This document shows positions 4,288 to 20,444 of a DNA stretch of 33,048 bases, piece after piece; position 1 is the first letter of the stretch; each line of letters starts with the position of its first letter. The stretch comes from Halobacteriales archaeon QS_9_67_17 (GTDB taxonomy: Archaea; Halobacteriota; Halobacteria; Halobacteriales; Haloarculaceae). The translations under genes were made by a program, and so were the position numbers. The notes under the pieces were generated by a model that searched no databases, was not told the origin of the DNA, and saw only the letters and a list, made by a program, of their open reading frames with translations. The stretch covers positions 11,209 to 44,256 of the forward strand of contig PXSB01000012.1 of the NCBI GenBank assembly GCA_003023185.1, given 5' to 3'.

Positions 4288-5730
4288 TCAGTTCATCGTC
4301 CGGCCGTCGACGGGCGGACCATAGAACTGGCCGTGGAAACCGTAGGGGAGCCGATGCGGGAGTGGTGCGCGCGCCAGTTCGTCCATGCTCGCGGCGTCGA
4401 GACAGACGAGCACCGACCGATCCGCGTCGGGATCGAGAACGACCGACAGCAGCACGCCGTAATCGTCGATATCCTCGGGAGCGGGCACGAACACCGGCTC
4501 TCCGGGATAGCCACCGGCGTCGGCCCAGCGGGTCACCGTTCCGCCGTCGGGGGCGACCTGCACGAGCGCGGTCGGGAGGCTCGATTCGCCCCGCGTCTCG
4601 GCGAGATACAGGCGGCCGTACGGTCGGCCGTTGTCCCGGGCGTAATCGATCATCGGGAACTCGACGGGGCCGTCGTGGACTGTTCGCCGGGACGCGTCAC
4701 CGCCATCGAGCGGGATTCGATACCGGACGAGGTCACCGGACGGGAGCTTTGGCGCGCCGGCTCGCAGGTTCGCCAGCGTGAGGCCGGTCATCGCGCGCTC
4801 GTCCGGGTACGCGACGCAGTCGACCACCACCTCGCCGTCCGTCTCGTAGGCGTTGGCGTGGTGGTAGACGAACGCAGGCGGCGCGGCGACCGTCGCGACG
4901 TGGTCGCCGGTCGTCCGGTCGAGGACGACGAACCGGAGCGGCTTGTCCAGCGGTTCGACGGCGTCGATGAACGTGTCGCCGGTGACGACGCCAGTGAGGA
5001 GCGTGGTCGTGTCGAGACCGACGGGGTTCACCGTGACGACGGCGTACCGCTCGGTGAGCGCGAAGGAGTGGACGTACGGCGCGTCCTCGAACCGCAGGCG
5101 TGTCAGCGGGGTCGGGTCGCCGCCCGCAGCGGGGCGCTCGAACAGCGTGTACGTCGCGCCCCGGTCATAGCTCACGCCGAGGTTGAGGAATCGGTTGCCG
5201 TCGCGGTGGAGATGCGCGAGCGTCACGTCACAGTCCAGCCCGGCGGTGAGGTCGACTCGATCCGTCGTTTCGAGCGTCTCCGGGTCGAATCGGATCCCCC
5301 ACGGCGACTCCGTGACCGCGAGGTAGTCGTCGCCGTAGCGGACGACGCCGACGGAGGGGTTGTCCTGAAACGCGTCGGTCAACGCTTGCCGGAGCCGCGT
5401 CCACGGCGGCCGGTCCGCGGGCGTCCCCGGCAACATCGCCCGGACGCCGTCCTGTTCGCGGGCGAACCGGAAGTCCTCGCTCCGGACGAACCGGTTGCTG
5501 TACCGGACGCCGTCGTCGAAGGTGAACGACCGGAGCATCGCCAGCGCATCGAACCAGTGGCGAAGGTCGGTGTCGCCGGCCTCGAACGCGCCGGGCCCGT
5601 TCGCGATGTAGCGGCCGCGCAGCCAGTCCGGGAAGTGACCCTCGACGGACAGCGACACGTCCTGCAGTTCTTCGCGCTGGGTCTCGAACCCGCGGCGGTA
5701 GCCCGTCCCGGTTTCCTGCTCACTTGCCAT
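4288..5730 (-). CDS. Carotenoid oxygenase (CCD/RPE65 family), copy 1
   Basis: A 480-residue non-haem iron dioxygenase of the carotenoid-cleavage/lignostilbene family, which cleaves a double bond in carotenoids or related polyenes and stilbenes. The four iron-binding histidines of the seven-bladed propeller can be placed at His173 (LAHLHRD), His221 (YVHSFAL), His290 or 291 (YHHANAYE) and His466 (GFHGQFYG). An RYIANGPGAFE segment near the N-terminus (about 40-50) and FDDGVRYSNRFVRSE (71-85) are typical. The ATG at 5730 is preferred over the long upstream extension because family similarity begins just after it and a TATA-like box lies 26 nt upstream. It is 35 nt downstream of a paralogue of almost the same length. 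The substrate is unknown; haloarchaeal retinal is usually made by the unrelated Brp/Blh family. Confidence 0.92.
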   Translation of the reverse strand: MASEQETGTGYRRGFETQREELQDVSLSVEGHFPDWLRGRYIANGPGAFEAGDTDLRHWFDALAMLRSFTFDDGVRYSNRFVRSEDFRFAREQDGVRAMLPGTPADRPPWTRLRQALTDAFQDNPSVGVVRYGDDYLAVTESPWGIRFDPETLETTDRVDLTAGLDCDVTLAHLHRDGNRFLNLGVSYDRGATYTLFERPAAGGDPTPLTRLRFEDAPYVHSFALTERYAVVTVNPVGLDTTTLLTGVVTGDTFIDAVEPLDKPLRFVVLDRTTGDHVATVAAPPAFVYHHANAYETDGEVVVDCVAYPDERAMTGLTLANLRAGAPKLPSGDLVRYRIPLDGGDASRRTVHDGPVEFPMIDYARDNGRPYGRLYLAETRGESSLPTALVQVAPDGGTVTRWADAGGYPGEPVFVPAPEDIDDYGVLLSVVLDPDADRSVLVCLDAASMDELARAPLPHRLPYGFHGQFYGPPVDGRTMN

Positions 5731-5765: not shown

Positions 5766-7220
5766 CTACGGCACCAGCTCGGGGAAGAACCGGCCGTGGA
5801 AGTCGAACGGGAGTGCGTGGGGGAGCGGTGCCCGCGCCCGTTCCGTCAGCGTCTCGCCGTCGAGCACGACCAGCGTCGACCGACCCGCCTCGTGGTCGAG
5901 TGTCACCGTCAACACGACGCCGTCGTCCGCCGAGTGTGCGCGCTCGTCGTCGGTGGGCCGCGCCGACCCCGAACGCGGGACGAATATCGGCTCGCTGACG
6001 GGGGTGTCGTCGCTCCACTCGGTCACCCGACCGGTGACGGTGTCCACCTTCCGGACGGCGCGTGGCCACCGTGTCACCGGCGTGTCGGTCCCCTGCGCGT
6101 ACACGTAGCGGTGCTCGTGTAGCCGCGTCGCGGGCGAGACGGTCGGCAGGCCCGTCCCGGTGGCGAAGCGGGCGGTCCGCTCGACCGTCGGCTCGCCCGC
6201 TGGGTCGGTGACTCGATACCGGTCCAGCCGCCCGGCGACAGCGTCCAGTTGGCCCGCGCGCAACGCGGCGAGGTCTAAACTGTCCACCGCGTCGGCGTCC
6301 GGCAGGGTTTCGAGGTCGAACACCACGTCGCCGTCGGTCTGGTAGGCGTTGACGTGGTGGAAGCCGAAGACGGGCGGTGCGGTCGCCTCGCCCACGACGC
6401 CGCCGCCGTGCCGGTTGATGACGTACACGGTCGTCCCGGCGTCGGGCCGCCAGCGGAAGTTCTCGACGAACGGCCCCTGACGCCCCGGCTTGAAGAAGGC
6501 GAGCGGGTTCACGTCGAAGGGGAACGCGGTCAGGACGACGTAGTCGGGCGTCAGCGCGAAGCTGTGCATGTAGCTCGGGCGGTCCGTCGGGACGGAGGCG
6601 AGGAGCTTCCGGCGCTCCGGCGACCGCATCGCGTACACGTGGTAGTAGCTGGGCCGTCCGAACTCCGTCTCGACGTTGACGTGGAGGTCGCGGTCAGGGT
6701 CATACCGGAGGTGTGCACAGGCGAGGTCGCCGCTCGGGGCCGGGCCGTCGTACCGGCGATGCCCCAAGGTTTCGAGGCTCGTAGGGTCGACGCGGACCCA
6801 CCGCGGGCTCTCGGTCAACGCGAGATACTCGTCGCCGATCCGTTCGAGGATGATGTTGGTGTTGTCGTACGGGTCGCCACGGAAGGCGTTCCAGAGCCGC
6901 TCGCGCAGCGTCGACTCGCCGGTGGCGAACCCGCCGTCGAAGCGACCCGCCCGCGCCGCCTCGTAGGCGTCGGTCCGGAGGAAGCGGTTGCTGTACCGGA
7001 CGCCGTCGTCGAACGTAAACCGGGTGAGCATCGCGAGCCCGTCGAACCAGTGGTCGACGCTCCCATCGCCGACCGAGAAGGAGCCGGGACCGTTCCGGAC
7101 GAGACTCCCCGACAGCCACTCGGGGAGGCTCCCCTCGACGGGGAGGGCGACGGTCGTCTCCGTCGACAGCGAGTGGAAGCCGAGCCGGTCGTCGGGGCCA
7201 GAATCCTCCGAGCGTGCCAT
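5766..7220 (-). CDS. Carotenoid oxygenase (CCD/RPE65 family), copy 2
   Basis: A 484-residue paralogue of the downstream gene, same strand and family. The iron ligands can be placed at His170 (ACAHLRYD), His219 (YMHSFAL), His288 or 289 (GFHHVNAYQ) and His475 (FDFHGRFF), so the metal site appears intact. Shared blocks are VRNGPGSFSVGD (41-52), FDDGVRYSNRFLR (70-82) and the C-terminal RARAPLPHALP. The two copies are clearly diverged, with different lengths between the second and third histidines, so this is an old duplication or separate acquisition and not a recent copy. The ATG at 7220 has an ATAT-containing box 27 nt upstream. The protein may act on a different polyene or cleave at a different bond from copy 1. 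Confidence 0.92.
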   Translation of the reverse strand: MARSEDSGPDDRLGFHSLSTETTVALPVEGSLPEWLSGSLVRNGPGSFSVGDGSVDHWFDGLAMLTRFTFDDGVRYSNRFLRTDAYEAARAGRFDGGFATGESTLRERLWNAFRGDPYDNTNIILERIGDEYLALTESPRWVRVDPTSLETLGHRRYDGPAPSGDLACAHLRYDPDRDLHVNVETEFGRPSYYHVYAMRSPERRKLLASVPTDRPSYMHSFALTPDYVVLTAFPFDVNPLAFFKPGRQGPFVENFRWRPDAGTTVYVINRHGGGVVGEATAPPVFGFHHVNAYQTDGDVVFDLETLPDADAVDSLDLAALRAGQLDAVAGRLDRYRVTDPAGEPTVERTARFATGTGLPTVSPATRLHEHRYVYAQGTDTPVTRWPRAVRKVDTVTGRVTEWSDDTPVSEPIFVPRSGSARPTDDERAHSADDGVVLTVTLDHEAGRSTLVVLDGETLTERARAPLPHALPFDFHGRFFPELVP

Positions 7221-7879: not shown

Positions 7880-9316
7880 CTACAGGAGCCCGGCGTCCCG
7901 GGAGATGGCCCGCACGGTGCCGCGGAACGGTTCGCTAATAGCCACGAGTGTCGCGAAGTAGACGGCACCGCCTAACCCGACGACGAAGACGACGTACCCC
8001 CACCAGCGGAGCGGTAGGGCCTCGCGGGCGCCGTACACAACCACGCCCATCACGAGGCCACTAACACCCTGTTCGATCAGAGGTCGCGGGAGCAGCGACA
8101 GTGAAGGAATGATCGACCGGACTGCGTACGCGGCACCCACGTATGCGACTGCCTCGCTAATCACCGTCGCGGCGACGACACCGATTGGGCCGACGGCGAA
8201 GAACAGGCCGACACCGAGGACAACGTTCAGCAGGAAGACGACGGTCGAGATACGGAGGTTCAGGTCCGGGCGGTCGAAGCCATCCAAGGTTGATACCAAG
8301 ACGGATTTCTGTGAGCGGAAGAGGTGGAATAGTGCGAGGCCGGCAATAAACGCCCCGGCATCCGCGTACTGTCCGCTGAATATCGTCACCACAACTGGCG
8401 TGCCGATGATGAGTGCGCCGACGAACAACGGGATGGCGACGATACTCACGTACGAGAGGTTGTTCTGGATGTCGCGGTCGACATCCTGCTGCTTGCTCCG
8501 ACGATTGCTGATACGCCCCATCAGGCCGCTACTCGCCACGCCGGCGACGAACATGGCGGGTGTCGTCAGTCGCAGCGCAACCTCGTAGTTTCCGACGATT
8601 CCCGGCGTCGCTAGGAATCCGAGTAGGAGCGTATCCATTCGGTTCTGCGCTGTACCAACGAATCCATTGGGGATGCTCGACTTCGCAAACGTCCATATCG
8701 CCCGGATGGTCTCTCCGCTCGGAACCATTGGTCGGATGCCGAGGAAGTAAATCACTAACGGGGCTATGAGAAGGTTCGCTAGTACTATCCCTCCGACCAT
8801 CCCAGCGGCCCCGAGTCCGGCAAGCACAAGCGCCGCCTGTGCGATGATTCTGACGACATCGCGCCCGGCCATCATCCACTGGCTGCTGCCGAAGTTGGCG
8901 CTAGCCTTGAGTATCTCGAGGGTCGCTACGTACGTCACCATGCCTACGAACAGTACGGACAGGAGTAGCCAACCCCTCGGTTCACCCGTGAAATCGGCGA
9001 TCAGTGGAGACAGCAGCCACGCGCCGGTCGTGACGATCACCGCTGACACGGCCACGCCGAGCAGCGTCGAGCCGACCGCTTCCCCAGACGGGAACCCTGC
9101 CTCGGTGAGTCGTTTCCGGCAGGCGTTCGCCCACCCCGTGACCGGATTGTCGAGGATCGACACCACGGCCATGAGGATGTAGAAAGCGCCGTAGCGGTCA
9201 GGCCCGAGTTCACGGGCAAAGAGGATGGCGCCGAGGAACGCCACGAGCATCGTCACGACCCGGCCGACGAACCCGATACCGACCTGCACGCCGAAGTCCG
9301 TGTCGCCGATGTCCAT
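7880..9316 (-). CDS. Polysaccharide/lipid-linked oligosaccharide flippase (MOP superfamily)
   Basis: A 478-residue integral membrane protein with about 12-14 hydrophobic helices spread evenly through its length, as in Wzx/RfbX and AglR-type transporters, which move lipid-linked glycans across the cytoplasmic membrane. Typical features are the N-terminal GFVGRVVTMLVAFLGAILFAR followed by ELGPDRYGAFYI, where the G-x-YG turn after helix 1 is characteristic, and a long helix-rich C-terminal half ending FRGTVRAISRDAGLL. It is the last gene of a minus-strand run with two AlkP-superfamily genes, and its ATG lies 3 nt after the stop of the preceding gene. With the glycosyltransferases nearby, it most likely exports the product of this cassette. 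A remnant of a second flippase lies at 15391-15540. Confidence 0.9.
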   Translation of the reverse strand: MDIGDTDFGVQVGIGFVGRVVTMLVAFLGAILFARELGPDRYGAFYILMAVVSILDNPVTGWANACRKRLTEAGFPSGEAVGSTLLGVAVSAVIVTTGAWLLSPLIADFTGEPRGWLLLSVLFVGMVTYVATLEILKASANFGSSQWMMAGRDVVRIIAQAALVLAGLGAAGMVGGIVLANLLIAPLVIYFLGIRPMVPSGETIRAIWTFAKSSIPNGFVGTAQNRMDTLLLGFLATPGIVGNYEVALRLTTPAMFVAGVASSGLMGRISNRRSKQQDVDRDIQNNLSYVSIVAIPLFVGALIIGTPVVVTIFSGQYADAGAFIAGLALFHLFRSQKSVLVSTLDGFDRPDLNLRISTVVFLLNVVLGVGLFFAVGPIGVVAATVISEAVAYVGAAYAVRSIIPSLSLLPRPLIEQGVSGLVMGVVVYGAREALPLRWWGYVVFVVGLGGAVYFATLVAISEPFRGTVRAISRDAGLL

Positions 9317-9319
9317 GCG

Positions 9320-10654
9320 TTACACCTTGTACCCTAAGTCTTCCAGTTGGCGCATCGTCTCGTCGTCGATGTCCGGGTCCGAGTCCGTGGTTGGTCGTGC
9401 GACCGACTCTATGGACACGGTGAACTCGTCGCGAACGGGTTCGGGAATCGCCACCGTCTCCGCGTCTCCGTCGCGGGACGTCTCGATCTCGTACCGAAGC
9501 GTCCGTCCCTCCGTGTCCCACTCGTAGCGTACGTCGCCCTCGTAGACGGTGCGGACGCCTCGCGTCCAGTACTCGTCCTCACCGTCGAAGAACAGCATCC
9601 CCGGCCGTTCGGCCGACACACGCTCGCGTGAGATCTCGGGGACTCGGCCGTCCTCAACGATGCCGCGCACCACCTCGCCAACATCGAGCAACGAGGTCAG
9701 GCCGGCGTCGTCGGGACCCTCTGCGCCGATGACCACGAACGGGACGTGAAGCAGTGCTGTCGAGAAATCCATGTGGCCGAGGTCACGCTCGCCGGGGAGC
9801 CGGAGTTCCTCGCCGTGGTCGGCGGTGACGATGACGACGGTGTCTTCGTCCGTCCGCGCCTGAAGTCGCTCAACGAAGGCCGCGACCTGCTTGTCGAGGT
9901 ACCGGACGCTCGCCGCGTAGAGATCGCGGTAGTTCTGGAGGTACTCGTCGATGGTCTCGGGGGCAGCCTCACGGACGGTCTCGGCGGAGAGAGACCGCGA
10001 GTGCCAAGCGTAGGGTACGTCCGAGTCGAGAATGCGGAGGTTCTCCATTGGCCCGTGCGCATCGATAAAGTTCGCGAACAGCAGGAAAGGCTCGGCGGCC
10101 GCTTCCCGCAACGCCCGGTCGATAACCGCCGTCGCGCCGAAGTCCCCCAGCTTCGGCACCCGCGTCCCAGTAAGCCATTCGTTGAGTTTGATGTACAGGC
10201 CGTTGCGCAGACTCTCCGTCAGAACGTCCCGCTCGCGCGCCATGGAGACGTACTTTCGGTAGCGGTCGAGTCCGGTCGTGTCGGCCACCTCACCGAAGCT
10301 CACGGCGTCGAACGAGCGCTCGTCGTTACCCGCGAACGAGTCGAACGTGTCGAACAGCGCCTCCGCGCCGAACGACTCCGAGACGGCGCCGTTAGCGCTC
10401 AGTCCGACCGACCGGTGGTTGAGATCGTTGAAGAACGTCACCTCCAGATCCGCGTAGTTCGGATTGTAGCTGTGGACGCCGTGGTGGCTCGGGAGCCGCC
10501 CATTGAACATCGATGCATGACTCGGGACGCTCCAAGAGCTGGGCGCGTAGCAGCGGTCGAACTCGACATCCGCCAGCTCCCGTAATCGTGGAGCGTGCTC
10601 GTCGAAGTAATCCTTCCGGACCGTGTCTAACACGAGGAGGGCGATGTTCGTCAT
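9320..10654 (-). CDS. Sulfatase-like (alkaline phosphatase superfamily) protein, long form
   Basis: A 444-residue metal-dependent hydrolase or transferase of the AlkP/sulfatase superfamily. The order of motifs is intact: metal-binding Asp10 in VLDTVRKD, the nucleophile segment SSWSVPSHASMFNG (39-52), FIDAHGP (196-202), TADHGE (277-282) and GHMDFS (293-298). In place of the C-x-P-S-R formylglycine motif of true sulfatases it has S-V-P-S-H, so it need not be a classical sulfatase and may act on phosphate esters or transfer groups. No signal peptide or membrane helix is seen, so it is probably cytoplasmic. The ATG at 10654 is chosen because MTNIALLVLDTVR aligns with the family start; the longer upstream frame overlaps the previous gene. 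It lies 1 nt after that gene and 3 nt before the flippase, so the three are one operon. Confidence 0.88.
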   Translation of the reverse strand: MTNIALLVLDTVRKDYFDEHAPRLRELADVEFDRCYAPSSWSVPSHASMFNGRLPSHHGVHSYNPNYADLEVTFFNDLNHRSVGLSANGAVSESFGAEALFDTFDSFAGNDERSFDAVSFGEVADTTGLDRYRKYVSMARERDVLTESLRNGLYIKLNEWLTGTRVPKLGDFGATAVIDRALREAAAEPFLLFANFIDAHGPMENLRILDSDVPYAWHSRSLSAETVREAAPETIDEYLQNYRDLYAASVRYLDKQVAAFVERLQARTDEDTVVIVTADHGEELRLPGERDLGHMDFSTALLHVPFVVIGAEGPDDAGLTSLLDVGEVVRGIVEDGRVPEISRERVSAERPGMLFFDGEDEYWTRGVRTVYEGDVRYEWDTEGRTLRYEIETSRDGDAETVAIPEPVRDEFTVSIESVARPTTDSDPDIDDETMRQLEDLGYKV

Positions 10655-10655
10655 C

Positions 10656-11621
10656 TCACACCTTGTAGCCGAGGTTGCGGAGTCGCTTGTCGACTTCGCC
10701 CTCGTCGGCCTCGTGATGGCTGATCTCGCCGTCAACGATGCGGCGGCGCGAGCCCACCTCCTTGACGGCCCACGGCACCTCGGTGAGCTTCGGGTGACGA
10801 ACACCATCCGGGTGAGCGTAGCAGCGGAGCGGGAACGGCCAGAGCCACTCGCCAAACAGTTCACCGTGGTCGGCGGTGAACACTGAGCGTCCGCCGAGAT
10901 CCTCGGCGAGTTCTTCCGCGTAGTGCAGGGCGTACAGCAGATTGTCGAGGTAGCCGTCCCAGACCTCCTCGCGGGTCACGTTGCCCTCTTTGAGGTCGTC
11001 GCCGGGGTGAAGCCCGCTCTGTGTCTCGGGCTTCTGCGTCCCGTCGCTGTTCCCGACGATAGGGGCGTGCGGCTGGAAGTAGTGGACGACGAGCCGCTTG
11101 TTTGGGTAACGCTCCTGCACCTGCCGGGCCGCCTCGGAAAGCGTGTCGGGATGGATAGTCACGCCCCCGCTGACGCCGACGCCATCAATGGCGCCGCCGG
11201 CGTCTTGAATCTCCTGTTCACTGAGTTCGCCGCTCTCGACCCAGAGATTCACAATGTCGTGAAACGAGTCGGGCGCGATCTTCGAGATCCAAGGATTCGC
11301 CGTCACGTAGACCGTGTCGGGGTACTCGCGGCCGTCGAACGTCTTCTCCATCCACTCAGGACTGGAGCAGCCAATAGAGTGGACGCGGCGGTACTCGTCG
11401 AACCGAGGGGTGTCTGTCGCCTCCTCGAAGAGGTCGGCGCGACACGCGTCGAGGATGAGGAGGTTGTCCCAGTCCTCCTGCATGTAGTCGATTCCCGTGT
11501 TGCCGTGGAGCTTTCCGAGGACAGGACCGGCGATTCGCGAAGAGAAGCGGAGTCGCCACCAGTACGGGTCGTCGCCGTTGCGGGCGATTTCCGAGGCAGC
11601 GTAGCGGAGTTTCCCGAGCAT
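10656..11621 (-). CDS. Short AlkP-superfamily protein, glycan-cassette type, copy 1
   Basis: A 321-residue protein of the AlkP-like fold, shorter than usual sulfatases. Seen are LDACRAD (57-63) for the first metal ligand, a possible nucleophile region CSSPEW (85-90), VYVTANPW (104-111), HYFQPHAP (180-187), TADHGE (249-254) and the C-terminal LRNLGYKV. It is clearly paralogous to the plus-strand gene at 12905-13894: both begin with a LRYA..EI...DD.[YF]WWR.RF module absent from the long form. The ATG at 11621 is preferred over a GTG/ATG extension to 11645 because the paralogue starts at the same place and a TATA box lies 29 nt upstream. It is followed after 1 nt by the long-form gene. The role is unknown; glycan or phospholipid head-group modification is an inference. 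Confidence 0.82.
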   Translation of the reverse strand: MLGKLRYAASEIARNGDDPYWWRLRFSSRIAGPVLGKLHGNTGIDYMQEDWDNLLILDACRADLFEEATDTPRFDEYRRVHSIGCSSPEWMEKTFDGREYPDTVYVTANPWISKIAPDSFHDIVNLWVESGELSEQEIQDAGGAIDGVGVSGGVTIHPDTLSEAARQVQERYPNKRLVVHYFQPHAPIVGNSDGTQKPETQSGLHPGDDLKEGNVTREEVWDGYLDNLLYALHYAEELAEDLGGRSVFTADHGELFGEWLWPFPLRCYAHPDGVRHPKLTEVPWAVKEVGSRRRIVDGEISHHEADEGEVDKRLRNLGYKV

Positions 11622-11645
11622 CTTATCGTTAGCCCCCGGCTCCAC

Positions 11646-11654
11646 AATTAAAAG
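11646..11654 (-). promoter_or_regulatory. TATA box of the AlkP-AlkP-flippase operon
   Basis: CTTTTAATT on the minus strand is centred about 29 nt before the ATG at 11621. It supports a leaderless transcript covering the two AlkP-superfamily genes and the flippase. It lies in the 60-nt gap after the glycosyltransferase gene. Confidence 0.6.
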
Positions 11655-11681
11655 CCCTCTTGGTTTCGCCGTGCCGGTGCG

Positions 11682-12764
11682 TCAGCCGCATACGCCGACG
11701 AGCGAGCGGTACAGATCGGCGTGTGCCGACGCCACTGCGTCCATCCCGTGCTGGTCGCGGTAGCGCCGCATCGCCTCAAGTATGGAGGTCGGGTCGTCAA
11801 GGAGTTCCCGGACCGCCACCGCGCCAGCGTTGGGGTCGCCCTGTGGGAACACCACCGGGAAGCCGTAGTCGTCTTGGAGATCGGCGAACTGCTCGACATC
11901 GGTGCCGACGACCGGAACCTCGTACGCGAGACACCAGTTCAGGATGCCGCTCTGCGTGACCGTCTCGTAGGGGAGCAGCGCGACATCCATGGCGTTGAAC
12001 AGCGCGTGGAACGCCTCGTCGTCGAGTACACCTGTGATGCCGACGCGGTCGCCGCACCGCTCCCGGAGGTCCATCAAGTAGTCCTCGTAGGTCCCTTCGT
12101 GGATGCCGCCACCGACGAGGAAGGTTACATCGTCAACCCGCTCAGCCACGTCAACGAACAGGTGGTATCCCTTCTGCGGGCGGACAAAACCGGGCTCGGC
12201 AACAAGCGGTCGATTTGGGGAGATGCCCAGTTCGCGCTTCGCGTCTGCCTGCGGCATCGGATGCAGGTCGGTCGGCACGCCGTGCGGCAACACCTCCACG
12301 GACGAAAGCGGAGCGGTCCGTTCGAATATCTCGCGTGTGTCCTCGGAGAGAAAGATGGCGTGGTTGGTCACCGCCGTGAGGAGGCGGTTGTTGAGCCACA
12401 GGTACGCCGACTTAACCGATTCGACTGGGGGAGCAACGGTCTCCTGACCCCACGCGCTGTGAAAGGTAACGACCAGCGGTCGCCCCCGGAGCGTCGTCAG
12501 CAGCCAAAGCAGCGGGAATACGAGCCAGCTGGCGATGCTCTTCGGCCCGTAGATGTCGTACTCGTGCTGGACGTGGACTACATCGGCGTCCGTGAGTCCA
12601 GCGCGGACGCTCTGGACGACGTAGTGGAAGACATCAAGCGACCGGAGCTTCAACGGCGTGCGGGTGTGTTCCACCGACAGCGCGTTCTCAAGGGTCGTCG
12701 TGTACGTCGCGATACCGCAGTCTTGCTCGGAGCCGGTGACGAAGAACTCAACTTTCATTTGCAT
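11682..12764 (-). CDS. Glycosyltransferase family 4
   Basis: A 360-residue GT-B fold transferase, cytoplasmic face, moving a sugar from a nucleotide donor to a growing lipid-linked glycan. The N-terminal lobe begins KVEFFVTGSEQDCGIATYTT, with a glycine-containing early turn, and has DVVHVQHEYDIYGP (61-74). The C-terminal lobe has VLPHGVP (158-164), the linker-type PGFVRPQKGYHLF (191-203), VALLPYETVTQSG (261-273) and VPVVGTDV (283-290). Length is normal. MQMKVEFF starting at 12764 and MKVEFF at 12758 are both possible; the AT-rich 140-nt divergent region upstream holds TATA-like stretches (TTATTA, GATAAAAAG). It faces away from the short AlkP-superfamily gene copy 2. The donor sugar is unknown. 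Confidence 0.88.
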   Translation of the reverse strand: MQMKVEFFVTGSEQDCGIATYTTTLENALSVEHTRTPLKLRSLDVFHYVVQSVRAGLTDADVVHVQHEYDIYGPKSIASWLVFPLLWLLTTLRGRPLVVTFHSAWGQETVAPPVESVKSAYLWLNNRLLTAVTNHAIFLSEDTREIFERTAPLSSVEVLPHGVPTDLHPMPQADAKRELGISPNRPLVAEPGFVRPQKGYHLFVDVAERVDDVTFLVGGGIHEGTYEDYLMDLRERCGDRVGITGVLDDEAFHALFNAMDVALLPYETVTQSGILNWCLAYEVPVVGTDVEQFADLQDDYGFPVVFPQGDPNAGAVAVRELLDDPTSILEAMRRYRDQHGMDAVASAHADLYRSLVGVCG

Positions 12765-12904
12765 CAAATAACGGTTATCAAAGCTGTTGCCGTCGGCATA
12801 ATAACGCTTTTTATCGCCGCGACGCGCAGCGATTTGTCGGGCACAGCGGTCGACAGCCGAAAAACCGAAAATGAATTGACCAATCCCCGGGATTCCAGAA
12901 ATGA

Positions 12905-13894
12905 ATGAAGCCCCTCGGAGCGCTCCGGTACGCGTATCAGGAGATACGTGACAACTACGACGACCGGTTCTGGTGGCGGGACCGGTTCCTGCACCGTATC
13001 GTCGCGCCATTCCACCTCTCCGCCTATCCGACCCGGAAGGAGAGCGTCGACGTCATCTCCGAGGACTGGGACACCCTAGTCGTTCTCGACGCCTGCCGGG
13101 TCGACTTGTTTGAGTCATACGCGGACCTCGGAAACTACGACGAGTACGACATCGTACGGAGCCGCGGGAGCGCGACCCAAGAGTGGGTCCAGCAGAACTT
13201 CACCGGTGGATCCTTCGGCGATACCGTCTACGTGACTGCAAACCCCTTCGTCTCCCGTGAAGCCGGCGACGCATTCCACGCCATCTACGAACCGTGGCTC
13301 ACGAAGTTCGACGAGGAAACGCGGACGGTGCTCCCGGAGCAGACGACGGAAGCGGCTATCGAGGCGTATCGGGAGCACCCCGACAAGCGGCTCGTCGTCC
13401 ACTATATGCAGCCACACCACCCGTTCGTAACCGCACCGGACCTCCGGTTCCACGGCTGGCAGATCGACGACTTCGACGGCTGGACTGAGCATCAAGAGGA
13501 GACCGGCTTGAAAGACGCCACGGCTCACGGTCGTCCCCACACCCCGTGGGACGCCCTCTACATGGGGCTCGCCTCGAGGGAAGATGTGTGGGACGCGTAC
13601 GGCGAGAACCTCGACGTGGCACTCGACGCGGTCGCCGACCTGCTAGGAGAGGTCGACGGCCGGACCGTCGTCACGAGCGACCATGGCAACATGCTCGGCA
13701 AACGGACGTTCCCGGTACCGATGCGCGTGTACGGCCACCCGAAGGGCGTCCGGAACCGGGAACTCGTCGAGGTACCGTGGGCCGTCGTCGAGGGTGAGGA
13801 GCGCCGCGATGTCACCGACGACGGGACGGCGGCGGCCGAGGAGCACGACCAAGATGTCGTGCAGGACCGACTCGATGACCTCGGCTACGTGTAG
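12905..13894 (+). CDS. Short AlkP-superfamily protein, glycan-cassette type, copy 2
   Basis: A 329-residue paralogue of the gene at 10656-11621, on the opposite strand. Conserved blocks are GALRYAYQEIRDNYDDRFWW (5-24), VVLDACRVD (59-67), a possible nucleophile region GSATQEW (88-94), VYVTANPF (108-115), HYMQPHHP (166-173), TSDHG (257-261), VYGHPKGVRN and the C-terminal LDDLGYV. The metal-site Asp, His and Asp-His residues of the AlkP fold are therefore in place, and there is no signal peptide. The start at 12905 gives the N-terminus matching copy 1; a weak GAAAATGAAT stretch about 30 nt upstream may be the promoter. Its stop codon abuts the stop of the convergent glycosyltransferase with no spacer. 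The substrate is unknown. Confidence 0.82.
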   Translation: MKPLGALRYAYQEIRDNYDDRFWWRDRFLHRIVAPFHLSAYPTRKESVDVISEDWDTLVVLDACRVDLFESYADLGNYDEYDIVRSRGSATQEWVQQNFTGGSFGDTVYVTANPFVSREAGDAFHAIYEPWLTKFDEETRTVLPEQTTEAAIEAYREHPDKRLVVHYMQPHHPFVTAPDLRFHGWQIDDFDGWTEHQEETGLKDATAHGRPHTPWDALYMGLASREDVWDAYGENLDVALDAVADLLGEVDGRTVVTSDHGNMLGKRTFPVPMRVYGHPKGVRNRELVEVPWAVVEGEERRDVTDDGTAAAEEHDQDVVQDRLDDLGYV

Positions 13895-15016
13895 TCAGCC
13901 ACTGAGGTCGTTCAATGCCACCCACTGCGTCTCTATGGCAGACTGCAGAGACGACCTGAACCGATCCATGCTGAACTGTGTTGCTGTCGTTCCCGGCTCT
14001 CCGTTGATGCCGTTCCTTTCGAACCGCTCGATAGCTGCTATGATGTCAGCGGAGGTACCGTCGTGCGTGTATCCGTTCTCGCCGTCGGTGATATACTGCC
14101 CGGGGAATCCCTCATCGCGAGAGAGGACAGCCTTCTCACTGGCGTTGGCCTCGATAGGGACGATGCCGAAGTCCTCGTTGCGGCCGTTGAACATCACGAC
14201 GCGACACCGCGAGAGCAGGTCGAACTTCTCGTCCTCGCTCACGAACCCCCGGTACTCGATGTTCTCTGCGCGGTCGATGCGTTCCCGGACCGAGTCGTCG
14301 ATGTCCCCCATTCCACCGATCATTATGAGCCGTTGGTCCACGCTATCGAACGCCTCAACGACTGCCGGGACGCCTTTCTCCTCGTCGAGTCGCCCGAGAT
14401 GTAGGTAGTAGCCGTCGTCACCCTCGTTGTGATACTTTGAGAGGTCGAGCGGTGGATACAGCACCTCAGAGTCCCGCTTGTAATACTTCCAGAGGCGCCG
14501 TTTGATGATCGGTGAGTTGACAAGATAGTAGTCGACGCGCGGGTCGACGGTCTGGTCTCGGGTTCGAAGATACCGGACCAATGGCCGCGCTAATATCCCG
14601 CCGATTGATTCTTTTCGGTCGTGATAGAGGTCGTAGAACCATCTTGGCGGCGAGTGACAGTAGTTGACGTGTAGCGTATCATCCGGCGTGATGACCGCAC
14701 GCGTCGTCGCCCCCGAGGTGACGAGCACGTCAGGATCACCAAACTCGCGCCAGTCGACATCTTCCCACATCGCGTATTCGAAAACCCGGCCCGCGCGGTG
14801 CTGGAGATGGCGCATTAGCGTGTAGTCAAGCGATGGGATCACATTCTTGAATGTCACGTCACCGTACGGGTTTGAGGTGTCGGGAGCCGGTTCACCGAGG
14901 GTGTACACCGTCTCCTCGTCCAGCACTTCAGCGAGATGCGTCACGAGATACTCCGCACCGCCCCACGCGTTGACGTGCCAGTGAGCGATGGCGATGTCGA
15001 GGTTGGTCAGTGCCAC
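13895..15016 (-). CDS. Glycosyltransferase family 4 (WbaZ-like)
   Basis: A 373-residue GT4 enzyme. The N-terminal signature AHWHVNAWGGAEYL (11-24), with the double glycine that contacts the donor, is typical, followed by CHSPPRWFYDLY near residue 140. The second lobe has EVLYPPLD, LHLGRLDEEKG, NEDFGIVPIEA and an ENGY turn, all characteristic. The start is GTG at 15016, giving MALTNLDIAIAHW; no in-frame ATG gives a better N-terminus. A short ORF upstream overlaps this start by 10 nt. The enzyme converges without spacing on the short AlkP-superfamily copy 2. Its DFGIVP region resembles the remnant at 7309-7620, so two enzymes of this type once existed in or around the cassette. Confidence 0.9.
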   Translation of the reverse strand: MALTNLDIAIAHWHVNAWGGAEYLVTHLAEVLDEETVYTLGEPAPDTSNPYGDVTFKNVIPSLDYTLMRHLQHRAGRVFEYAMWEDVDWREFGDPDVLVTSGATTRAVITPDDTLHVNYCHSPPRWFYDLYHDRKESIGGILARPLVRYLRTRDQTVDPRVDYYLVNSPIIKRRLWKYYKRDSEVLYPPLDLSKYHNEGDDGYYLHLGRLDEEKGVPAVVEAFDSVDQRLIMIGGMGDIDDSVRERIDRAENIEYRGFVSEDEKFDLLSRCRVVMFNGRNEDFGIVPIEANASEKAVLSRDEGFPGQYITDGENGYTHDGTSADIIAAIERFERNGINGEPGTTATQFSMDRFRSSLQSAIETQWVALNDLSG

Positions 15017-15553: not shown

Positions 15554-16522
15554 TCAGCGGTCGCGCAACAACTCCCGAATCGACGCCTCGACGGACTGTT
15601 CGGGCGTCCAGTCGAGCGCCTGTTCGATGGCCGTCGTGTCGACGTCAAAGGTATCGACGAGCGTCTCGCCGCTTCGGGGATTCTCCGCGAGTTCGATGTC
15701 CACGTCGATGTCGCGCTCCTCGCGGGCGACCCGCTGGACCGTCTCGGCGACCGACATCACGCCGGGATCCTCATCGCTCGCGACCTCGAAGGCGCGAGCG
15801 CCCGTCTCGCCCGCCCGGTTCGCCTCGACCAGTCGCTCGGCGCTCCGGCAGAACGCCGTGGCCACGTCCTTCACGTGGACGAAGTTGCGCGCCTGCGTTC
15901 CGGGTTCGTACACCGTGAGCGGGTCGCCGGCGAGCGCGCGGTCGACGAAGAAGTTGATGACCGTGTTCTTGGAGACGCGCCGGTCGCCGACAGCGTGGTC
16001 GCCGTAGAGGTTCGAGATCATGAACAGGTGGGCGGGGACGGCGTCGGCGGCCATCGTCTCGACGGCCCGCTCGCCGAGCACCTTCGTCTCGCCGTACCAG
16101 TTCAGGGGGTCGCGCCGGGCGTCGGTCGTGATGGGGAATCCCGGTGGGTCGCCGATGACGGCCATCGAGAAGGGGAACGCGAGCGCCGCGCCGTGCTGGC
16201 GACACCAGTAGGCGACGTTGTTCGTCCCGACGACGTTCACCTCGTACGCGAGGTCGGGATTCGTCTCGCAGTCGTCCACGCCCGAGATGGCCGCGAGATG
16301 GAGGACGGCGTCCGCGCCCGCGAGCGTCTCGGCCAGTCGATCACGGTTCCGGATGTCGACGTGCTCGACCGGAACGCCGTCGATCTCGCGAATCTCACCG
16401 AGGTAGAAGTTGTCGAGCGCGGTGAGGTCCCAGTCGGGGTGTGCACGGCGAAGATCACGGACGACGCGGCTCCCGATGAAGCCGGCCGCGCCGGTGACGG
16501 CGACGCGTGGCGAGTCACTCAT
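15554..16522 (-). CDS. NAD-dependent epimerase/dehydratase (extended SDR), gene 3 of operon
   Basis: A 322-residue extended short-chain dehydrogenase acting on a nucleotide sugar. The N-terminal Rossmann motif is TGAAGFIGS (10-18), the cofactor Asp is at LDNFYLG (36-42), HLAAISG is at 75-81 and the catalytic Y-x-x-x-K is YGETK (143-147). The latter half carries the family's ARNFVHVKDVA segment. Length is normal. The ATG at 16522 directly precedes the Rossmann strand. It follows the second SDR gene by 90 nt, a gap that contains a 7-bp inverted repeat (CTTTCGC/GCGAAAG, 16555-16597). It could be a 4-epimerase, 4,6-dehydratase or related enzyme; the reaction cannot be fixed from motifs alone. Confidence 0.9.
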   Translation of the reverse strand: MSDSPRVAVTGAAGFIGSRVVRDLRRAHPDWDLTALDNFYLGEIREIDGVPVEHVDIRNRDRLAETLAGADAVLHLAAISGVDDCETNPDLAYEVNVVGTNNVAYWCRQHGAALAFPFSMAVIGDPPGFPITTDARRDPLNWYGETKVLGERAVETMAADAVPAHLFMISNLYGDHAVGDRRVSKNTVINFFVDRALAGDPLTVYEPGTQARNFVHVKDVATAFCRSAERLVEANRAGETGARAFEVASDEDPGVMSVAETVQRVAREERDIDVDIELAENPRSGETLVDTFDVDTTAIEQALDWTPEQSVEASIRELLRDR

Positions 16523-16612: not shown

Positions 16613-17566
16613 TCAGTTCGACGACGTGACCCGACCCTCGACGAGCGCGTCTCTGAGGTCGCGAATGCCTTCGCGGAGCGTCCACTCCGGCTCGAACCCG
16701 GTCTCGGCGAGGCGGTCGAAGTTCACGTGATACGAGGGACCGGGGTGTTCGTCTTCGAGATACGTCACGTCGACCGGCGCGACCTCCTCGCTCACGATTT
16801 CGGCGATCTCGGCGATGCGGTAGTTGCCGGCGTTCGAGCCGACGTTGTACACGTCCCGATTCCAGTCGTCGGGGTTGAGGGCGGCAGCGCGATACGCACG
16901 GGCGGCGTCCTCGACGTGGATGAACGGCCGCCAGTTCGAGCCATCGCCGTACACCGTGAGCGGGCGGCTGGTGAGCGCCTGGAAGACGAAGCTGTTGACG
17001 ACGAGGTTGAACCGGACGCCCGGCGCGTGGCCGTAGTTGGTCGCCATCCGGAGCGCGACGCCGTCAACGTCGAACTCAGCGGTCGTCTCGCGGAGCAGTG
17101 TCTCCGCGTCGCGTTTCGTCTCCGCGTACGGGTTGATCGGTGCCGGCTCGACCGTCTCGTCGATGTCGGTCGTCGGCGCGCGGCCGTAGATGTTACACGA
17201 CGAGGCCAGTACGAGTGTGTTGACGCCGGTCTTGCCGGCGGCGGTGCAGACGTTGCGCGTCCCCTCGTAGTTAGTCGCGACCGTCTCCTCGCGGCGGTCG
17301 TGCGTGCTCGCAGCGCCGGTGATGGCCGCGAGGTGGATGATCGTATCCGCGTCGCGAGCGGCCGCCTCCACGTCGCCGTACTCGCGGATGTTGCCGTTGT
17401 GGAATCGAACGGTCCCGTCGCCCAGTTGCCCGGTCAGCGCGCGCGGCGACCCCGACGAGAGGTCGTCCATCACGGTCACGCGGTCGACGCGGTCGTCGGC
17501 GCGCAGTTGGGGAACGAGCGCGCTACCGATGTAGCCACAGCCGCCGGTGACGAGGACGTGGCTCAT
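16613..17566 (-). CDS. NAD-dependent epimerase/dehydratase (extended SDR), gene 2 of operon
   Basis: A 317-residue extended SDR. Motifs are TGGCGYIGS (7-15), MDDLSSG (33-39), HLAAITGAAS (78-87), SSCNIYG (122-128) and catalytic YAETK (147-151), followed by NYGHAPGVRFN and the NWRPFIHVEDAARAY segment typical of UDP-glucose-4-epimerase-like enzymes. It overlaps the upstream SQD1-like gene by 4 nt (ATGA), so the two are translationally coupled. It probably modifies the same or a sequential nucleotide sugar as its neighbours. Its exact reaction is not determined. Confidence 0.9.
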   Translation of the reverse strand: MSHVLVTGGCGYIGSALVPQLRADDRVDRVTVMDDLSSGSPRALTGQLGDGTVRFHNGNIREYGDVEAAARDADTIIHLAAITGAASTHDRREETVATNYEGTRNVCTAAGKTGVNTLVLASSCNIYGRAPTTDIDETVEPAPINPYAETKRDAETLLRETTAEFDVDGVALRMATNYGHAPGVRFNLVVNSFVFQALTSRPLTVYGDGSNWRPFIHVEDAARAYRAAALNPDDWNRDVYNVGSNAGNYRIAEIAEIVSEEVAPVDVTYLEDEHPGPSYHVNFDRLAETGFEPEWTLREGIRDLRDALVEGRVTSSN

Positions 17567-18750
17567 TGCAGCGCATCGGGGAGGAACCGGTCCTCGTGGC
17601 TGGTGATGACCTCGCGGTACCGGACCAGCGTGTCGAGGATGTCCTCGACGCCCTCGGCGAAGGTGGCGCGCTGCTCGCCGATCAGATCCATGTAGCGGTC
17701 GTTGTCGATCTCCATGCGGTGGGTCTCGTCCTCGTCGCGGGGGTTCTCGACGTGGGTGACCTCCACGTCAAGATCGAAGTCGGCGGCCACGTCGCGGATG
17801 GTCTCGGCCAGTTCGACGATGGCGATGGGTCGGGTGACCTGATTGTAGACGGTGAGACCCTCGGGCGCGCCGGCAGTCTCGTCGGTCGCATCCGGGCCGT
17901 CGCCGCACGCGAGTCGGGCTAACCCTTCGACGGCGTCCTCCAGCGAGACGAACGGCTTGCGTTGCTCGCCCTTGCCGTAGACGGTGAGCGGGTAGCCCGC
18001 GACCGCCTGCGCGGCGAACCGGTGGGCGACGACGCCGAAGTAGTAGTCGAAGTCGAACCGCGTCTTCAGTCGGTCGTCGGCGCGCGTCTCCTCGATCTCC
18101 GTCCCGTATGTGATTGCGGTGCGCACGTCCGAGATCGGGATGTCGAACTGCTGGGCGGCGAGCCGGAGGTTGGCTGCGTCGTGTGCTTTGCTCGTATGAT
18201 ACCACGACCCCGCCATCGCCGGGAACGGCACCTCGTCGCGCTCGCCGTCGTGTTCCATTACGGCCCCGCCTTCCGGGATCGGGAACTCGGGCGCGCCGTA
18301 GAGGCCCGTCGTCGTCGTCTCGACGAAGTGGGTGTCGGTGAGGCCCTGCTCGTGGAGCCCGAACAGGAGGTTCCGGGTCGCCTGCATGTTGTTGTGCTGG
18401 GTGTAGTTGGCGCGCTCACCGTTGATTTGTGAGTAGGGCGCGGACGGCTGTGCGGCCGTGTGGACGACGGTCGACGGTTCATGTACCTCCAGTAGCTCCG
18501 CGACGAAGGAGCGCTCCGTCAGGTCGCCTTCGACGAACGAGAGGTTCGACAGACTATGGACCTCGCGGGCGGCGTCCAGACGGGTCTCGATACTCGCGAT
18601 CGGCGTCGCGCTCGTGGCCCCGACCTCCTCGACCCAGCCACGACGGGCGAAGTTGTCGACGGCGAGCACACGTTCGTCTGTTCGGGTCGCGATACGGAGC
18701 GCGGTCGGCCACCCGATGTAGCCGTCGCCCCCGGTGACGATGATGCTCAT
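17563..18750 (-). CDS. UDP-sulfoquinovose synthase-like SDR (SQD1/Agl3 type), gene 1 of operon
   Basis: A 395-residue SDR with the features of the SQD1/Agl3 group, which makes UDP-sulfoquinovose from UDP-glucose and sulfite. Seen are TGGDGYIGWPTAL (6-18), VDNFARR (31-37), SATPIASIETR (47-57), QPSAPYSQING (101-111) and YTQHNN (116-121). Catalytic YHTSK (184-188) is followed by HDAAN, and PLTVYGKGEQRKPF is also family-typical. The His after the catalytic Tyr is kept. From memory of the plant enzyme, QRSAPYS and GTMGEYG are usual, whereas this protein has QPSAPYS and TTTGLYG, so an Arg and a Glu of the active site are changed. It may make another sugar or use another nucleophile. It heads a three-gene operon and has a palindrome directly upstream of its ATG. 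Confidence 0.8.
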   Translation of the reverse strand: MSIIVTGGDGYIGWPTALRIATRTDERVLAVDNFARRGWVEEVGATSATPIASIETRLDAAREVHSLSNLSFVEGDLTERSFVAELLEVHEPSTVVHTAAQPSAPYSQINGERANYTQHNNMQATRNLLFGLHEQGLTDTHFVETTTTGLYGAPEFPIPEGGAVMEHDGERDEVPFPAMAGSWYHTSKAHDAANLRLAAQQFDIPISDVRTAITYGTEIEETRADDRLKTRFDFDYYFGVVAHRFAAQAVAGYPLTVYGKGEQRKPFVSLEDAVEGLARLACGDGPDATDETAGAPEGLTVYNQVTRPIAIVELAETIRDVAADFDLDVEVTHVENPRDEDETHRMEIDNDRYMDLIGEQRATFAEGVEDILDTLVRYREVITSHEDRFLPDALQ

Positions 18751-18773: not shown

Positions 18774-18851
18774 ACGTGCAAGTAGTTTGCCATCGTCGGG
18801 CCGGAAGAGGTTTGTCGCCGGAAGTGCCAGAGTATGGTGGTGGGGGAAGCG

Positions 18852-19652
18852 ATGCGTATACTCGACAAACAAGGGCGGTTGTTCGGACGAATAAATATCA
18901 TCGATGCACTCGTACTCTTGCTGGTGATCGCAGTGGCGACAGCGGGTGCGACGCTCGTCGGGAGCGTCGCCGCGACGGCCGGCGTTCTGGCGCTTGGGGT
19001 CGCCGGATTCGCCGGGCTCTGGGCGGCCGGACCGCCGTCCGCGCCAGACGACGTAGAGGAGGACACGGGCGAAGAACGACTAGGGCAGTTCGCGCTGGTC
19101 GACGCCGGCACACATCCGCGAGCGGTGGTCGCGGATCTTACGGTGGAGACGCTCACGGCCGAGGGTGAGGCGACCGTTCATGAACTCGTGGAGACGCCCG
19201 CGCTCGACGGGACACACTTGTCCGTCCGTCTCGAAGCGACGGGCGACGAGCAGCCACCGTACGGGACGACGGTCGCGTTCGAAGCACCCGCCGCCCGGCT
19301 CACGGGGACGGTGGTCGCACACGTCGACGCGTCGCCGACACAGACCGTCGAGGTAGCGTTACAGACCGACGCGCCGCCGTCGGTGGTCGACGCCGTCGGC
19401 GATAGCGTCGAGCGCGTCGTCGACTCGACTGAGCTCCGAGTGACTCTCGACGCCGTCGCTGCGGGCGACCAACTCCGCTACGGAGGAACGACGCTTCGAC
19501 CCGGCGCACGCGTCGCGCTCGGCGGAGACGCGGCCGTCCTGACGGGGACGGTGACCGGGGTGGGCCGAGCGCCGTCGCAGGTGCGCGCCGGACCCGCCGA
19601 ATCCATCGCGGGGCGAGGGGCCAGCGTCGCGCCGTCTGTCGAAGACGACTGA
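18852..19652 (+). CDS. DUF4330 family protein, copy 1
   Basis: A 266-residue predicted membrane-anchored protein. It opens with MRILDKQGRLFGRINIIDAL, the DUF4330 signature (basic, then GRLFG+.N..DAL), followed by two hydrophobic segments (about 17-36 and 39-59) and a beta-rich domain of about 190 residues. A short module recurs inside it: YGTTVAFEAPAARLTGTVV (137-155) and RPGARVALGGDAAVLTGTV (216-234). The start at 18852 matches copy 2 and has a GGGGGA stretch 4 nt upstream; an ATG at 18834 adds six residues and is the alternative. It is divergent from the SDR operon and precedes copy 2 by 51 nt. Function is unknown; a surface-exposed domain is an inference. Confidence 0.75.
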   Translation: MRILDKQGRLFGRINIIDALVLLLVIAVATAGATLVGSVAATAGVLALGVAGFAGLWAAGPPSAPDDVEEDTGEERLGQFALVDAGTHPRAVVADLTVETLTAEGEATVHELVETPALDGTHLSVRLEATGDEQPPYGTTVAFEAPAARLTGTVVAHVDASPTQTVEVALQTDAPPSVVDAVGDSVERVVDSTELRVTLDAVAAGDQLRYGGTTLRPGARVALGGDAAVLTGTVTGVGRAPSQVRAGPAESIAGRGASVAPSVEDD

Positions 19653-19703: not shown

Positions 19704-20444
19704 ATGGAACTGATCGACGAGCGTGGGCGGCTGTTCGGTCGGGTGAACGTCGTCGACGCGCTCGTCGTCCTGCTCGTGGTCGCGGTGGTCGCTGCCGGCG
19801 TCGCGCTGGTCGCCGGCGGTGCGGGTGGCGGGATAGAGACGACCGCGGAGGAAACGAGCCGCGTCGTAACGGTGGAACTCGGGAGCCACCCCGACCGCGT
19901 CGCCACGCTCGTCGAACCCGGGAACGTCACCTTTGCCGGCGAGGACGCGACGATCACCGACGTGTATCGGTCGCCGACGGCCGACGGCGTACTGCTGGTC
20001 GCGGCCGTCCGCGTCGACGGTCAGCGAACGACCGGCGGCTTCGAGGTCGGCCGCACGCCGCTCCGGTACGGCACGGAGCCACACCTCGAAAGCACGAACT
20101 ACCGACTGAAGGGTCGCGTCGTCAGCGTCGGGAATCAGACGACGGTCGAAACGCGACAGCTCGCCGCGACGATGGAAGCGAACGTCTCGACGGCCGTCGC
20201 CGATGCCGTCACCGCCGGCGACGAACGGCGGATCGCTGGCGAGACAGTCGCCACGGTCGAATCGGTCGAAACCGTCGAGCGCGGCGACGGCTGGCGAGTC
20301 GTTCGCGTCGACCTGTCGCTGTTGACGCGTCCGACCGCAGAAGGGTTCACCTACGGCGGCAGAGCGGTCCGTATCGGGACTCACCTCGATTTCGAGACGA
20401 TGCGCTACCGGTTCCGTGGTCGCGTGGTCATGACGGAGCCATGA
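19704..20444 (+). CDS. DUF4330 family protein, copy 2
   Basis: A 246-residue paralogue of the preceding gene. It starts MELIDERGRLFGRVNVVDAL, has one transmembrane segment (about 17-41), then a beta-rich domain. An internal duplication is visible: PLRYGTEPHLESTNYRLKGR with VVSV (119-142) and AVRIGTHLDFETMRYRFRGR with VVMT (221-244), sharing R-[YI]-G-T, a Glu, Y-R and G-R-V-V. The spacing is about 102 residues, suggesting two repeats of a domain. The start at 19704 is set by the family N-terminus and the promoter box. It overlaps the next gene by 4 nt (ATGA). Function is unknown. Confidence 0.8.
   Translation: MELIDERGRLFGRVNVVDALVVLLVVAVVAAGVALVAGGAGGGIETTAEETSRVVTVELGSHPDRVATLVEPGNVTFAGEDATITDVYRSPTADGVLLVAAVRVDGQRTTGGFEVGRTPLRYGTEPHLESTNYRLKGRVVSVGNQTTVETRQLAATMEANVSTAVADAVTAGDERRIAGETVATVESVETVERGDGWRVVRVDLSLLTRPTAEGFTYGGRAVRIGTHLDFETMRYRFRGRVVMTEP

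Follow-up and report, generated by a model that had tools for sequence, protein, structure and literature searches.

Three genes for proteins of the alkaline phosphatase (AlkP) superfamily lie among glycosyltransferase and flippase genes in a stretch of 33,048 nt from Halobacteriales archaeon QS_9_67_17 (contig PXSB01000012.1, C12, of GCA_003023185.1). This whole stretch is referred to as the window, and its source is a haloarchaeal draft genome of 2.0 Mb in 102 contigs with a completeness of 67.5%. Between 7880 and 15016 the order of genes is a polysaccharide or lipid-linked oligosaccharide flippase (7880..9316, minus strand; PF13440/PF01943), a long AlkP-type, sulfatase-like protein of 444 amino acids (9320..10654, minus), short AlkP-type protein A (10656..11621, minus; 321 amino acids from ATG or 329 from an alternative GTG start at 11645), a glycosyltransferase of family 4 (GT4 a; 11682..12758, minus, with its start at 12758 or 12764), short AlkP-type protein B (12905..13894, plus; 329 amino acids) and a second such glycosyltransferase (GT4 b; 13895..15016, minus). 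The gaps from short A to the long gene and from the long gene to the flippase downstream of it are one and three bases, which is operon-like, and short B is encoded on the opposite strand. An earlier note on this DNA had described one long and two short AlkP-superfamily proteins beside GT4 and flippase genes, and the sizes and motifs it named are all present.

Short A and short B share 39% identity over 345 columns (BLASTP, E = 5e-78), far beyond chance, and belong to separate paralogue lineages. They share their N-terminal starts (LRYAASEIARNGDDPYWWR and LRYAYQEIRDNYDDRFWWR) and the core motifs LDACRAD/LDACRVD and QPHAP/QPHHP; QPH.P is carried by 47 of 49 short proteins and by none of 27 long ones. 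The C-termini of the three proteins (LRNLGYKV, LDDLGYV and LEDLGYKV) do share the ending that had been noticed, but it is not special to the cassette, since 48 of 49 short and all 27 long relatives from haloarchaea have L..LGY. The formylglycine signature of sulfatases, C-x-P-S-R, is absent from all three, as had been claimed; the long protein has S-V-P-S-H instead and the short type S-x-G-[CS]-x-[ST]-x-E-W. The claimed lack of an export signal was borne out as well, in that inspection by eye, without a signal-peptide program, revealed no N-terminal hydrophobic segment in the three sequences. The Pfam Sulfatase model PF00884 (curated cut-off 25 bits) matched the long protein with 63.2 bits, short B with 16 bits and short A not at all. 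Neither Pfam nor NCBIfam has a model dedicated to the short type, and some of its members carry the RefSeq label ‘LTA (lipoteichoic acid) synthase family protein’. A profile built from 49 short-type relatives and searched against PDB found choline sulfatases (E ~3e-5) with PH.P and DHG in register, and alignment of the short and long profiles with hhalign gave 99.1% probability with D, S/T, H, DH and H in register.

The residues at EptA/MCR-like positions (D58, S/T87, H185, D251, H252 and H270) are kept in all 49 short proteins, with T in 28 and S in 21 of them at position 87. Also invariant in these 49 are W51, D52, C60, R61, H180, P184, P187, Y224, G257 and P283. In the alignment of the long family D10, H200, D279, H280 and G281 are invariant and H294 is almost invariant; position 42 is S or T in the rows shown and S in the protein of the window (within S-V-P-S-H). 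The active site of MCR-1 consists of E246, T285, H395, D465, H466 and H478, and we take the order of the short-type residues to be equal to this and their spacing to be similar. The AlphaFold2 models reached a pLDDT (predicted local distance difference test) of 88.9 for the short protein and 78.9 for the long one, and the best Foldseek match of the long model was a choline sulfatase, followed by other sulfatases. As judged from alignments and models, all three proteins have a predicted AlkP fold with the ligands D, D-H and H and a Ser/Thr nucleophile in this order, and the AlkP-type residue set appears complete, with Ser/Thr replacing formylglycine. The metal site and nucleophile that the earlier note had called for are thus represented by a complete residue set, invariant in the short proteins, within the fold predicted by AlphaFold2 and Foldseek.

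An N-terminal module peculiar to the short type had also been proposed. The module is present, in short A at approximately residues 1-47 (LRYA..DD.YWWR) ahead of the AlkP core of residues 48-321 with its catalytic S87, but according to tree and alignment the start LRYA..EI...DD.[YF]WWR marks only one clade within the short family, and remoter members have other or shorter N-termini. In the AlphaFold2 model it forms two helices (residues 2-15 and 19-39) of low mean hydrophobicity. A strong amphipathic helix was rejected for this segment, the moment of residues 19-39 being unremarkable (0.26), and what stands is a charge contrast, with a mean net charge per residue over the short family of +0.03 in the N-terminal module versus -0.10 in the core. 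The neutral-to-basic WWR module probably serves to dock the acidic core to the membrane or to the acceptor glycan.

Of 146 genomes from the taxonomic family of the window, 129 encode a relative of the short type, often in multiple copies. In a draw across the phylum, 30 of 148 genomes had a match, 23 inside the order of the window and seven outside. Among 120 genes flanking short-type genes at 19 loci the most frequent families were Glyco_trans_1_4 (21), GT2 (16), Sulfatase (16) and Polysacc_synt (15), all four of which fell outside the top 25 families among 120 control genes, which came from nine of these genomes at a distance of approximately 200 kb. The suggested co-occurrence of the short type with GT4 and flippase genes, and also with GT2, is therefore strong. 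In the nearest syntenic cassette beyond the genus (genome G003) flippase, short A, GT4 a, short B and GT4 b follow in the same order, and aglB is located 3.5-5.7 kb from the short genes. In the tree short A and short B fall into two separate lineages and G003 has an orthologue of each, which dates the pair to before the genus. In another genome (G231) a set of long, short and flippase genes lies within approximately 10 kb of aglB, and 8 of 102 short hits were found at most 20 kb from aglB versus 1.2 expected, a Poisson value that serves as a guide only since hits in the same genome are not independent.

Two further observations concern the copies themselves. At one locus (L113, G286:C35:17096-17979) a TAG stop codon interrupts a short-type copy that lies beside an intact short copy, a long AlkP gene and a flippase gene, so that one member of the pair is decaying. 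Two genomes from other families of the phylum (G453 and G462) have short-type matches at 12 and 7 places, several with internal stops and many on one contig; this array, found beyond the order of the window, has expanded and in part decayed.

A similar gene cluster was recently described in Halobacterium salinarum, in which three AlkP-superfamily proteins (VNG1056C, VNG1057C and VNG1063H) are encoded around aglB (Zaretsky et al., 2025; PMC11980604). The di-sulfated N-glycan decreased approximately 250-fold without VNG1056C and approximately 50-fold without VNG1057C, and expression of either protein in Haloferax volcanii led to sulfation (PMC11980604). Both sulfate the dolichol-linked glycan, ahead of its transfer to protein, and were renamed Agl30 (VNG1056C, membrane-associated) and Agl31 (VNG1057C, soluble), and residual sulfation remained without them (PMC11980604). 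Older studies likewise assign sulfation to the dolichol-linked stage. Agl7 of Hfx. volcanii is an earlier case of a protein that contributes to sulfation of a dolichol-linked sugar (PMC3871713). The proteins of the window resemble Agl30 and Agl31 in superfamily, in their location in a cluster with glycosyltransferases and a flippase (an N-glycosylation cluster in H. salinarum), in the C-terminal L..LGY and, on our reading, in acting on a dolichol-linked glycan. We compared them with peptides encoded by the primers in PMC11980604. Searches with the primer sequences gave no H. salinarum match in 392 genomes of the order or in 13 of a candidate Halobacterium-like genus, and two unrelated bacterial hits in a wider collection of genome contigs. 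The VNG1056C peptide DFGHLDM is similar to DLGHMDF of the long protein, a motif type that among the open reading frames collected occurs only in this protein and its close orthologue. The long protein is a candidate Agl30-like glycan sulfotransferase. The VNG1063H peptides (VHYFQPH, KIDEDV and KELGYIE) match short-type positions, and VNG1063H has no assigned InterPro family; its top BLAST name is ‘LTA synthase family’, a name also given to some short-type members. VNG1063H apparently belongs to the short type. The two clusters differ in that H. salinarum has two sulfotransferases and one further, apparently short, AlkP protein near aglB, whereas in the window a single long protein is encoded with two short ones and aglB is unlinked. 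Moreover, VNG1056C has a predicted transmembrane segment (residues 21-39), but none was seen by eye in the long protein.

We consider it probable that the cassette makes, decorates and flips a lipid-linked glycan, to which the three AlkP-fold proteins add a small anionic group as transferases at the cytoplasmic face. The glycan is most likely a dolichol-phosphate-linked N-glycan. The GT4 enzymes would assemble it, and the AlkP-fold proteins would transfer the group to sugar hydroxyls before flipping; this location is proposed because no export signal was seen and a flippase gene is part of the operon. The metal site (D, H, D, H and H) would activate the Ser/Thr nucleophile (S42 in the long protein, S87 in short A), which would receive the group from the donor, and the resulting covalent Ser/Thr ester intermediate would pass it to the sugar, a two-step transfer as in AlkP-fold transferases. 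The flippase would then export the decorated glycan. By analogy with Agl30 and Agl31 the group moved by the long protein is most likely sulfate, and the two short proteins plausibly transfer sulfate too, at other positions or to other sugars. What the sequences show is families, conserved residues and gene surroundings; sulfation has experimental proof only for Agl30 and Agl31 of H. salinarum (PMC11980604), and for the proteins of the window we infer orthology, donor, acceptor and topology alike. Canonical sulfotransferases that depend on PAPS (3′-phosphoadenosine 5′-phosphosulfate) were rejected as an alternative, as the proteins have the AlkP fold and no Sulfotransfer_1 or Sulfotransfer_3 member was found in six genomes of the genus.

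Several results weigh against this proposal. In the genome of the window aglB is on another contig (C75), where no AlkP gene lies close to it, and elsewhere, too, the majority of short-type copies do not have aglB in their vicinity. A search for APS (adenosine 5′-phosphosulfate) kinase gave weak or partial matches, none of them strong, and orthology to Agl30 and Agl31 is suggested by peptides read from primers and by the family to which the proteins belong. For the short type, transfer of sulfate is unproven because deletion of VNG1063H, of which one copy was reported compared with two short copies in the window, left the N-glycan tetrasaccharide and its sulfation unchanged, and its target was stated to be unknown (PMC11980604). 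In addition, the first ten Foldseek matches of the short model were phosphoethanolamine transferases (EptA, ICR and MCR; E ~5e-7 to 1e-5, TM-score, the template modelling score, 0.4-0.47), with sulfatases only thereafter. Because of this likeness to transferases of phospho-groups and the negative result with VNG1063H, the short type could move a group other than sulfate. It might transfer a phosphorus-containing group, such as phosphoglycerol or phosphoethanolamine, which a membrane phospholipid would donate, at the cytoplasmic face in the manner of EptA/MCR or LTA synthase, which would also suit the ligand order D-S/T-H-D-H-H, its invariance and the RefSeq label of some members. However, the catalytic domain of EptA, MCR and EptC is extracytoplasmic and preceded by a membrane domain at the N-terminus, whereas the short proteins have no N-terminal hydrophobic segment on inspection, no transmembrane domain was seen in them and identity is approximately 13%. 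The nearest experimentally studied haloarchaeal relatives are sulfotransferases, the profile search by sequence puts choline sulfatases first, and the literature consulted yields no haloarchaeal N-glycan modified with a phosphodiester, so that we regard such a phosphorus transfer as rather unlikely. Similarly doubtful would be the broader view of the short type as an unnamed enzyme class in its own right, widespread in archaea and made up of soluble EptA/MCR-like AlkP transferases, which add a non-sulfate group (e.g. a phospho-alcohol) to lipid-linked glycans at the cytoplasmic face. If true, such a class, with multiple copies per genome, would diversify surface glycans in a way so far hidden.

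Hydrolysis was considered as well, since superfamily membership, the PF00884 match of the long protein above the Pfam cut-off and its best structural match, choline sulfatase, are what would be expected of sulfatases or phosphatases that act in the cytoplasm to trim glycan precursors or recycle them. Unlike S1 sulfatases, however, the proteins of the window lack the formylglycine motif, show no export signal and are encoded in a biosynthetic context of glycosyltransferases and a flippase, and their studied relatives add sulfate in vivo; a hydrolytic role therefore seems improbable. We find it more improbable still that sulfur enters the glycan as a sulfonate and that the AlkP proteins have a role unrelated to sulfur. 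Such a route would start from the UDP-sulfoquinovose-synthase-like (SQD) gene at 17563..18750 (minus), a short-chain dehydrogenase/reductase (SDR) whose product matched NF041015 with 339 bits, under the curated cut-off of 575. It is accompanied by two SDR nucleotide-sugar epimerase/dehydratase genes (15554..16522 and 16613..17566, both minus), and a sulfonated sugar nucleotide may be what these three genes provide. This SQD-SDR-SDR trio is also encoded close to a short-type AlkP gene of a different genus (G118, L111:935-4075), but no such gene is found at most short-type loci examined, and a sulfonate and a sulfate ester may coexist.

Other genes flank the cassette. A tandem pair of the RPE65/carotenoid-oxygenase family (4288-5730 and 5766-7220, minus; PF03055, 345 and 361 bits) is located on the flippase side. 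In G003 a gene that matches this pair in length and strand (484 amino acids) adjoins the flippase gene, and a relative of that gene lies near aglB in the genome of the window. Two neighbouring DUF4330 proteins are encoded beside the glycan region at 18834-19652 and 19704-20444 (plus). A defence system was rejected, as PADLOC gave no match, and so was an origin from a phage or virus, since phage records had no match and PHROGs gave a weak match of unknown function for the long protein only.

The cytoplasmic glycan-modifying set proposed in the earlier note is consistent with the residue set, the fold, the lack of a visible export signal and the gene neighbourhoods, but the idea that it is an undescribed system did not hold: the system is of a kind already described in the 2025 H. 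salinarum cluster, where two of the three AlkP proteins are glycan sulfotransferases. What is new is the short type, a widespread, multi-copy archaeal family with, by its sequences, a complete active-site residue set, for which neither Pfam nor NCBIfam has a model. To sulfate glycans by means of AlkP-fold sulfotransferases is unusual, and the link to such genes dates only from 2025. VNG1063H, the unexplained third gene of that study, appears to be part of a family present in nearly all haloarchaeal genomes sampled. With the short family and its active site named, the group attached and its acceptor become directly testable, and the annotation of many genes now called ‘hypothetical’ or ‘LTA synthase’ would improve.

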